Below, piece by piece: positions 34,275-36,972 of a DNA stretch of 46,732 bases. Positions within the stretch are counted from its first letter, which is position 1. Every line of letters starts with the position of its first letter. Source of the DNA: Desulfuromonadales bacterium (GTDB taxonomy: Bacteria; Desulfobacterota; Desulfuromonadia; Desulfuromonadales; UBA2197); NCBI GenBank assembly GCA_014859605.1, contig JACUTW010000010.1, positions 1 to 46,732 on the forward strand, read 5' to 3'. Under the pieces are notes generated by a model. It did no database searches, was not told the DNA's origin, and saw only the letters and a list, made by a program, of their open reading frames with translations. Both the position numbers and the translations under genes were made by a program.

Positions 34275-34790
34275 TTACGCCTTCTTTTTCGCCTTGCTCA
34301 CAGCTGCTTTCTTCTCTTTGCTGACAACCGGGGTTTTCTTCTCTTTGCCTGCGCCATTTTTCTTTTCGGCTGTAGCGATCCGGGCGGCCGCGAGTTTTTC
34401 GCCGAGACCGCTCTCTATCGCCATCTTCTTGCGTGTTTCTGAATAAGACTTGGCGGCCAGAGCCTGAGTGCGGGGGATGCCGAACTCTTTGCGATAATCC
34501 TTGGCCGCCATATTGTGCTTGGCCATGAGATGGCGCGACAATGTCTTCATGCTTTCGCCGCAGATGATACAAGTAATCGCATTTTTTCCGATTGACTTCT
34601 TGGCAGAGATCGCCGGTTTGACCTCTTCTGCAACAACTTCCGCCTCGGCAACAATATCAACACCCTTTTCGAGCGCCGAGAGTGCAGCATAAACGTCCTG
34701 AATCTCTTTCAGCAGATCTTCCTTTGACATCGGTGTCGTGGTCGCATGGGCAATAACAATATCTTTTGCCATCTCCAATAAAGTCGCCAT
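34275..34790 (-). CDS. MucR/Ros-type zinc-finger regulator with lysine-rich tail
   Basis: A 171-residue DNA-binding protein. The central Ros/MucR zinc finger has C74, C77, H87 and H92 (CIICGESMKTLSRHLMAKH, CX2CX9HX4H), followed by YRKEFGIPRTQALAAKSYSE, typical of the family. The C-terminus (about residues 143-171) is almost all Lys, Ala, Ser and Val, resembling a histone-H1-like tail. MucR-type proteins regulate envelope and polysaccharide genes and can bind DNA broadly. AAGGAG lies 9 nt upstream of the ATG at 34790. It is monocistronic, with its own terminator. Confidence 0.92.
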   Translation of the reverse strand: MATLLEMAKDIVIAHATTTPMSKEDLLKEIQDVYAALSALEKGVDIVAEAEVVAEEVKPAISAKKSIGKNAITCIICGESMKTLSRHLMAKHNMAAKDYRKEFGIPRTQALAAKSYSETRKKMAIESGLGEKLAAARIATAEKKNGAGKEKKTPVVSKEKKAAVSKAKKKA

Positions 34791-34861
34791 TTTTAGTTTC
34801 TCCTTTTTTAAATTCATCAACCGTTCATAAGGATACAGAGTTATCTCAAATATTCAATAGT

Positions 34862-35017: not shown

Positions 35018-35053
35018 AGCGAAAACTATCGCGAGCCGGAGCTCGCTCCAACA
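35018..35053. repeat. REP fragment overlapping the ligB-like 3' end
   Basis: CTATCGCGAGCCGGAGCTCGCTCCAAC is one half of the element at 11576-11626. The last eight codons of the ligase and its TAG stop are encoded by it, so the C-terminus has been rewritten by the repeat. Confidence 0.7.
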
Positions 35054-36870
35054 CCCGTTCGTTGTTCCAGCCAATCCTTGAGCAGCTCATCATCCCCGAG
35101 GAGTCCGAGGCGATAGAAAGCGGCCAGCTGTGGCCTGGCGGCCGGGCTGGCAAGAAAGCTGGACAGGGCGGCTCCGGAGCGGTCGCCGATGACACTGGCA
35201 AGCTCCGGAGCAGTGGCGGTCGTTATGGCGCCGAGGGTGGCATAATGCTTTTGCAGCCGTGCCAGCGTTTTCGGACCGATACTCTCAACCCCGAGCGCCG
35301 CCAGCAATCGCCACGGTTGCGGATGCCGGGCGCTTTGTAGCGCCGCAGCGATCCTGGCCGCCGTTTTGGCACCGAAACCATCGACGGCAGCGATCTCTTC
35401 TTCCTTGAGGGTGAGCAGGGAGGGGAGATCCGGCACCAATCCGGCCGCGGTCAGCGCTTGCAGGCGACCGCGCCCGAGTCCGGCGATATTCAGTCCGGCA
35501 GGGGAGGTGAAATGGAGCGCCCGGCTGAGAAATTGCGCCGAACAGTCAACGCCGGAGCGATAGCAAGCATGCGGACTGACCACGACCGGCGCCGCCGGCG
35601 CAAGGACGGCACGCCGGGGAATCCGCCGGGTCACGGCGACAATCTGCGGGATGACATCACCACTGAGGGCGACGAGGACTTCATCACCGGCGATGAGATC
35701 GAGCCGCTCCAGCTCGGCGGCATTATGGAGAGTGACGTGCTCGATCTGGATGCCCGCAAGCTCGCGCCGCGCCAGAGTCGCCACCGGCGTGCGACGCCCG
35801 GTGCGGCCAGTCTGCCAAAGGATCTCGGTGACGGTCGTCTGGACGGTGGCGGCCGGAAATTTCCAGGCTGCCGCCCAGTTCGGCGCCCGGCTGCCGTCCC
35901 CAAGGGTGCGACGTAGAAGCAAATCATCGACCTTGACGACAATCCCGTCGGCGGCAAAGGGCCATTGACTCCGTTGCGCCAAAGCAGTGGCAAAGAGTTC
36001 GCGGATCTCCGCCAGAGAAGTGGCACTCCAGCTCTGCGGCAGGGGATCGGCGAAACCCCACTCCTTGAGAGCGCGGAGGCTGTCGCGATCGGAGAGGACA
36101 GAATCAGCGACGCTGAGCTGCATAAAGGGGAAGAAAGCCAGAGCTGCGAGGGCTTTTGGAGTGGCGTCCTGAGAGCGTAAAGTGGCGACCGCCTGATGCC
36201 GCAACGTCGCATAAGCTGTGGCAGCGGCTGTCTGCGGCGCGTTCTCTTGCCGCTCTTTGCGGGCGTAAATCTCTCCGCGCAGCAGCAATCGGGGCGGGTA
36301 GTTGCCGCGCAGCTTTTGCGGAAGTGCGTCGAGCTTCCGGGCCTGGGCGGTGACATCTTCGCCGCGCAGGCCATCGCCGCGCGTTGCCGCTGCCACTAAC
36401 TTCCCCTGCAGATAAAGGAGCTCCACCGGCAGGCCGTCAAACTTGGGCTGAACCAGGTACAGAACTTTCCCCTCCGTGACCTTTTTCACCCGCTGCAACA
36501 ACGCCGCCACCGCCGTCTCATCGGCGCTGGAAGTCAAACTGAGCATCGGCTGCGCATGGGCAAGCGTCAACTTCGGATCGACCCCTTCGGCCCCGACCCG
36601 CCGCGTCGGCGAATCGACGCTGACCAGCAAGGGGAAGCAGGCTTCCAGCCTTACCAATCGGGCATAAAGGCGGTCATACTCGGCATCGCTGAGGACCGGA
36701 CGGAGCTCCTGATAATAAAGGCGATTGTGATAAAGGACTTCGGCGCTGAGGGTTTCGAGCTGAGTCTTGGCGGTAGAGGTGTCGAGAAGAGGGCAATCGG
36801 ACGCCGCAAAACTTCCGGCGGGCAGGGTGGTGATAAGCAGAATAAACCCGATGAATAGACGTGACAGCAT
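35026..36870 (-). CDS. ligB: LigB-like NAD-dependent DNA ligase with signal peptide
   Basis: A 614-residue NAD+-type DNA ligase. The N-terminus (LSRLFIGFILLITTLPAGSFA) is a Sec signal peptide, followed by a ligase Ia-like region (YHNRLYYQELRPVLSDAEYD), the adenylation motif QPKFDGLP with nucleophile lysine K143, and LLRGEIYARK, WPFAADGIVVKVDD and WKFPAATVQT. The zinc finger is reduced to two cysteines, there are helix-hairpin-helix repeats near GLGRGRLQALTAAGL and VDGFGAKTAARIA, and no BRCT domain. E. coli LigB has the same plan, including a signal-like N-terminus. AAGGAGG precedes the ATG. Whether it is active, and where, is unclear. Its 3' end is fused to a REP fragment. Confidence 0.88.
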   Translation of the reverse strand: MLSRLFIGFILLITTLPAGSFAASDCPLLDTSTAKTQLETLSAEVLYHNRLYYQELRPVLSDAEYDRLYARLVRLEACFPLLVSVDSPTRRVGAEGVDPKLTLAHAQPMLSLTSSADETAVAALLQRVKKVTEGKVLYLVQPKFDGLPVELLYLQGKLVAAATRGDGLRGEDVTAQARKLDALPQKLRGNYPPRLLLRGEIYARKERQENAPQTAAATAYATLRHQAVATLRSQDATPKALAALAFFPFMQLSVADSVLSDRDSLRALKEWGFADPLPQSWSATSLAEIRELFATALAQRSQWPFAADGIVVKVDDLLLRRTLGDGSRAPNWAAAWKFPAATVQTTVTEILWQTGRTGRRTPVATLARRELAGIQIEHVTLHNAAELERLDLIAGDEVLVALSGDVIPQIVAVTRRIPRRAVLAPAAPVVVSPHACYRSGVDCSAQFLSRALHFTSPAGLNIAGLGRGRLQALTAAGLVPDLPSLLTLKEEEIAAVDGFGAKTAARIAAALQSARHPQPWRLLAALGVESIGPKTLARLQKHYATLGAITTATAPELASVIGDRSGAALSSFLASPAARPQLAAFYRLGLLGDDELLKDWLEQRTGVGASSGSR

Positions 36871-36972
36871 GCCCCCTCCTTACTTCCATTGCTGAAGGTC
36901 GGGAAGGAATTTCCCGACACCAGGCGATTATGCACGAAAAATAATTTTTGTCACGCGTGGAAAAGCACGCGG

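Follow-up and report, generated by a model that had tools for sequence, protein, structure and literature searches.

Can an NAD+-dependent DNA ligase be made for export from the cytoplasm? The question arises in the window, the whole 46,732-nucleotide stretch of Desulfuromonadales bacterium contig JACUTW010000010.1 that was analysed, where an open reading frame on the (-) strand (36870-35026, starting at the ATG at 36870-36868) encodes a 614-residue NAD+-dependent ligase. The earlier note, written from the letters alone, placed a signal peptide on this protein, and the present analysis bears that out. The ATG lies behind a ribosome-binding site, AAGGAGG, four bases to its 5' side (36875-36881, (-) strand, read directly from the DNA, in which AAGTAAGGAGGGGGC precedes the ATG). 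Residues 1-22 (36805-36870, (-) strand) form a Sec-type leader, MLSRLFIGFILLITTLPAGSFA, continued by A23-S-D-C26; an Arg stands in front of a core of 10 uncharged residues with a mean Kyte-Doolittle hydropathy of 2.94, and cleavage is predicted, by motif only, after A22. The features expected for Sec export are thus all there: a positive n-region, a short hydrophobic core and a cut site, with no lipobox. The remainder, residues 23-614 (35029-36804, (-) strand), is the predicted mature exported ligase, as judged from the reading frame, its domains and its alignment. A misplaced start does not account for the leader, as the earlier note had feared that it might. The first in-frame ATG, GTG or TTG after the annotated start is codon 72, which is past Y52, D62, Y65 and D66 and inside NAD+-binding domain Ia; no alternative start retains domain Ia while omitting the leader, and initiation at codon 72 would yield a broken NAD+ ligase. 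A leaderless start is therefore ruled out.

The domains behind the leader, all on the (-) strand, are those of an NAD+ ligase. Pfam matches to the adenylation domain, the OB fold and two helix-hairpin-helix (HhH) families are above cut-off in the window protein, Nlig-Ia (PF22745) is just under it (25.9 bits against 27), and BRCT gives no Pfam match. Domain Ia, located by the sub-cut-off PF22745 match and by alignment, spans approximately residues 26-103 (36562-36795), with invariant C26 and C78 and with Y52, D62, Y65 and D66 kept. The adenylation domain (PF01653, 35851-36564) carries the nucleophile K143 (36442-36444) in motif I, K143-F-D-G146, just as the earlier note had read it. The OB fold (PF03120) occupies residues 344-415 (35626-35841), and the HhH region (PF14520, PF12826) residues 460-579 (35134-35493), after which the protein ends without a BRCT domain. 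Between OB and HhH, alignment places a zinc-finger remnant, C436-x6-C443 (35542-35565). The claim that zinc finger and BRCT are both lost is thus correct for BRCT and half correct for the zinc finger, in which the pair equivalent to C408/C411 of LigA is deleted and the pair equivalent to C426/C432 is kept.

Whether the leader is a peculiarity of one gene can be judged from its relatives. Searched with the window protein, the 277 genomes of its class yield 30 that have a match clearly above LigA (at least 345 bits, against 324 for the best LigA-type match). With LigB from E. coli, Enterobacter hormaechei and Klebsiella pneumoniae added to these 30 rows, the LigB-type set comprises 33; it is compared with a control set of 32 LigA rows that includes the E. 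coli enzyme. Removed before counting were L012 and L016 (copies of L002 and L001), L003, L007 and L010 (matching L065, L064 and L045), L009 (a broken frame), L008 (see below) and the split Klebsiella aerogenes ligB, which lies in two pieces (L073:1441-3113) annotated ligB_2 and ligB_1. The leader rule is simple and home-made: a positive residue, an uncharged 10-residue core with a mean hydropathy of at least 1.8, and a cut-site motif, sought from any of up to 12 start codons per frame (the annotated start for enterobacterial rows) relative to a common anchor in domain Ia. This rule accepts 29 of the 33 LigB-type proteins, that of E. coli among them; of the 32 LigA proteins it accepts 1 (L032), by way of a far upstream TTG. 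An uncharged core with a mean of at least 1.5, from any start, is found in 32 of 33 LigB-type and 2 of 32 LigA rows (L032, L001). The four LigB-type failures comprise two with a core (L018, lacking a positive residue, and L056, with a long n-region), K. pneumoniae, whose core is weak (1.57), and L053, a frame without a leader.

It is the property of these leaders, and not their letters, that appears to be selected: over 406 pairs of 29 class rows (L053 left out) the median identity is 21% in the leader against 56% in the mature part, and the hydrophobic core is nonetheless kept. Signal peptides evolve in just this way, with the property under selection and the sequence free. G003, a genome of the same genus, carries a copy that is 90% identical and has the leader as well; genome G002 (91% complete) yields only a LigA-type match and none of LigB type. 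An export leader appears to be general among the LigB-type ligases examined rather than the oddity of one gene, and the absence of the signal from close homologues, which the earlier note had named as grounds for giving up the idea, is not what the comparison returns. Sec export of the window ligase is well supported by this conservation, and we regard it as very probable. A lipoprotein is ruled out, with no lipobox at the invariant Cys in any of the 33 LigB-type rows. A separate observation concerns L008 (L008:1405-3021 and upstream), a verrucomicrobial LigA that retains all four zinc cysteines. Far upstream in its 827-residue frame is a stretch that satisfies the leader rule; with L008 counted in, 2 of 33 LigA rows pass, although a later Met fits it as well. 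L008 may represent an additional route to ligase export, or else a wrong start.

The cysteines and the net charge also set LigB-type proteins apart from LigA. C26 and C78 are Cys in 33 of 33 LigB-type rows each and in 0 of 29 and 0 of 32 LigA rows, respectively; C436 and C443, which correspond to LigA C426 and C432, are Cys in all 30 LigB-type rows that reach them; and all 33 rows lack the first zinc pair. Two further cysteines of LigA, C112 and C224 (present in 29 and 28 of 32 LigA rows), are absent from all 33. From C26 onward, 22 of the 33 LigB-type proteins contain exactly four cysteines, against 6-10 in LigA. Over the homologous part, net charge runs from -4 to +17 in LigB (30 rows) and from -28 to -3 in LigA (32 rows). 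In the predicted structure of the window protein (mean pLDDT 83.9, pTM 0.54), judged by helix ends only, the first helix begins five residues after C26 and the second finishes at C78; the ends of an antiparallel hairpin are adjacent, which makes a C26-C78 disulfide plausible in the model. That four cysteines are invariant is a fact; how they are bonded is a guess. Recognised oxidation partners are scarce where they would be needed: neither DsbB nor VKOR was found in the window's genome, and whereas DsbB occurs in 38 and VKOR in 67 (54 over cut-off) of the 277 genomes of the class, the 30 LigB-bearing genomes account for one DsbB (G171) and four VKOR matches (G213, G216, G217 and G238, only G217 over cut-off). 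Disulfides are accordingly doubtful in these organisms.

The best-surviving alternative is that the hydrophobic N-terminus plays no part in export and that the protein is a cytoplasmic ligase of base-excision or mismatch repair, as has been proposed for E. coli. There, LigB is treated as a repair enzyme, a ligB deletion being sensitive to peroxide and mitomycin C and a weak mutator, phenotypes that the authors attribute to repair (PMC5507437, consulted in part). Gene order lends this some colour. In two of 20 other loci (L086:4688-9380 and L088:3869-8585) ligB lies between mutL, before it, and miaA, after it, with mutL/ligB and ligB/miaA overlaps of 4 bases each (frames taken from the first possible starts; Pfam run on L086), an arrangement in which an exported ligase may be translated together with a mismatch-repair gene. 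A neighbour of another kind recurs: a glycosyltransferase-9 (GT9, heptosyltransferase-type) gene is no further than about 1.5 kb from ligB, on either side, in 10 of the 20 loci (L080, L081, L082, L083, L084, L085, L089, L090, L092, L095; Pfam calls for L080, L081 and L095, BLAST likeness for the remainder), although shared descent means that such counts are not independent. In L080, L092 and L095 it overlaps ligB by 4 bases, again with frames from the first possible start. The GT9 neighbourhood hints at the envelope, the mutL-miaA neighbourhood at repair. An amine-oxidase-like FAD gene is also nearby in five of the GT9 loci (L080, L082, L084, L085, L095). No GT9 gene is listed as adjoining ligB in the window or in G003; in the window a ROS/MUCR-type regulator gene (34275-34820) follows ligB just downstream on the same strand, a ThiI/NFACT-R-type protein is encoded nearby, and divergent frames beside ligB resemble tolQ-R-A-B. 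What weighs against a cytoplasmic repair ligase is that a hydrophobic core is kept in 32 of 33 leaders that share so little sequence, against 2 of 32 in LigA, and that the conserved cysteines and acidic charge of LigA are gone; this explanation is unlikely.

Export without release is a second alternative, in which the N-terminal helix is an inner-membrane anchor and the ligase faces the periplasm. Some leaders are indeed long and lack an ideal cut site, and positive charges precede the core in most rows. Set against this, the first invariant Cys follows the end of the core by 1-13 residues in 32 of 33 LigB-type rows, and passing rows have a cut-site motif after the core (which the rule itself demands). 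An anchored ligase is, on balance, distinctly unlikely. A third alternative concerns function rather than location: periplasmic repair of DNA entering by natural transformation, like the role suggested for Lig E (parts of PMC4220977 and PMC10799422). ComEC is present in the window's genome; its family is also matched in 10 of 14 control genomes, so that its presence says little, and no com gene was recognised among ligB neighbours, which were not annotated systematically. Of the two roles that the earlier note offered as speculation, one for extracellular DNA and one in natural transformation, transformation is thus not specifically supported, and we hold it to be very unlikely; an extracellular or periplasmic (biofilm) role fits the E. 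coli data slightly better.

K-AMP transfer from NAD+ is the known chemistry of the NAD+-ligase family, and the active site suggests that the window protein retains it. The comparison follows the roles of the E. coli LigA residues. K115, D117, G118, R136, E173, R200, D285 and K314 of LigA, and Y22, D32 and D36 of its domain Ia, are kept in 33 of 33 LigB-type rows, which settles positively the suggestion that active-site residues be checked across LigB-like proteins. Other positions have diverged: the window protein has replaced R218, R308 and R379 of LigA, the R379 position being Leu in 32 of 32 LigB rows, and at E113, two before the nucleophile Lys (window residue 141, 36448-36450), all 33 LigB rows have Gln where all 32 LigA rows have Glu. 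These replacements and the low activity of E. coli LigB, less than 1% of that of LigA (PMC5507437, in part), might be taken to indicate a degraded LigA copy or an NAD+/DNA-binding protein that is no ligase, a notion that is scarcely credible given motif residues invariant across 33 sequences, some pairs of which are only 23% identical. From its residues, ligase chemistry is expected of the window protein. Two relatives may be of another sort: in G265 and G264 (L066 and L067; surroundings of L066 in L094) the LigB-type frame stops after approximately 430-440 codons, near the OB domain, as either a natural short form or a broken gene.

The preferred model is that of an exported NAD+ ligase. The leader would direct Sec export and be cut after approximately A22, as the conserved sequence suggests. 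The protein would fold outside, perhaps stabilised by two bonds, of which C26-C78 would close the hairpin of two helices in domain Ia and C436-C443 would stand in for the zinc site; this is the weakest step. Domain Ia would bind NAD+, from which K143 would take AMP, both with conserved residues, and the enzyme would seal nicks in DNA outside the cytoplasm, for example in biofilm DNA or in DNA crossing the periplasm. External NAD+ is the hardest point; lysing cells, which would release DNA and NAD+ together, are the simplest source. Replication would be left to a separate LigA: the 2.76-Mb genome of the window (G000) encodes one further NAD+ ligase, presumed to be LigA, in a frame of 715 codons that lies on contig 132, and the window gene is thus an accessory ligase. 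We consider the whole model, a periplasmic or extracellular LigB-type ligase that seals nicks with lysis-derived NAD+ as the NAD+ counterpart of Lig E, probable. That LigB-type ligases overall, E. coli LigB included, likewise act beyond the cytoplasm on NAD+, their paired cysteines substituting for the zinc finger, is slightly more likely than not.

The E. coli data fit the model in part. Loss of ligB reduces biofilm 1.6-fold, yet the repair phenotypes accompany it (PMC5507437, in part); in that paper words beginning with 'signal', 'periplasm', 'export', 'secret' or 'cysteine' occur 0 times in a term search, and a description of LigB as exported was not found among the matches listed in the open-access literature, which does not imply its absence from print. 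Plasmids of the pCA24N type add an N-terminal His tag, and EndA is periplasmic. Overexpression of LigB from pCA24N blocks growth even when the protein is ligase-dead (PMC5507437, in part); the tag could spoil the leader and keep the overexpressed protein inside. When cpxR is deleted, ligB and endA both go up, with ratios to the reference of 3.6 and 2.4 (PMC2731931, in part). A genomic link to the EndA nuclease was sought and rejected: PF04231 is found in 7 of 271 class genomes, of which only G135 bears LigB. In E. coli, LigB has so far been a second, seemingly redundant ligase whose role is not agreed. If LigB is exported, it would act on DNA outside the cytoplasm, the biofilm phenotype would gain a direct cause, and NAD+ would appear to be a usable cofactor there. 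Export may even explain why its role has proved elusive, in that the weak activity and the puzzling phenotypes would stem partly from study in the wrong compartment with the leader still attached.

The comparison with known ligases begins with the name. The window protein scores 260 bits against the NCBIfam LigB model NF005987 (cut-off 498), 406 against the LigA model NF005932 (cut-off 369) and 398.5 against TIGR00575 (cut-off 444.45). It is therefore called LigB-type, not a certified LigB equivalog, and automated naming would label it LigA. It has the LigB domain order (Ia, sub-cut-off; adenylation; OB; HhH; no BRCT), lacks two of the four zinc-finger cysteines, and groups with enterobacterial LigB apart from LigA, by shared derived residues and by a tree in which all 30 complete LigB rows (the short L066-L068 left out) lie on one side of a branch with SH-aLRT 99, albeit a quick tree with a long-branch warning, since enterobacterial LigB is a very long branch. 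Across 395 genomes of the phylum only three matches stand clear of LigA, all in the window's class, although distant LigB could hide among LigA.

E. coli LigB (YicF, DNA ligase B), at approximately 27% local identity, resembles the window protein in its leader, its four invariant cysteines, the lost first zinc pair, Q at E113 and L at R379. It differs in having K and R where the window protein retains R277 and K290, and the window protein scores higher against the NCBI LigA model than against the LigB model. E. coli LigB too is described as lacking BRCT (PMC5507437, in part). LigA (e.g., 2OWO, 5TT5) is among the best fold and sequence matches and shares the Ia-adenylation-OB-HhH order and the active site; it is unlike the window protein in its four-Cys zinc finger (32 of 32), its more acidic charge and its 6-10 cysteines, and in that 31 of 32 fail the leader rule. 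LigA also carries a BRCT domain. Lig E, for its part, is an accessory ligase with a predicted periplasmic leader, whose loss lowers biofilm in N. gonorrhoeae (PMC10799422, in part); its activity rises when that leader is removed, and unlike the window protein it uses ATP instead of NAD+ and mostly has no added domains (PMC6144786, in part). The window protein, with its conserved domain Ia residues, does not appear to be a minimal ATP-dependent ligase of that kind. If LigB is indeed exported, the comparison would suggest that LigB and Lig E, accessory ligases of different kinds, have come to occupy the same location.
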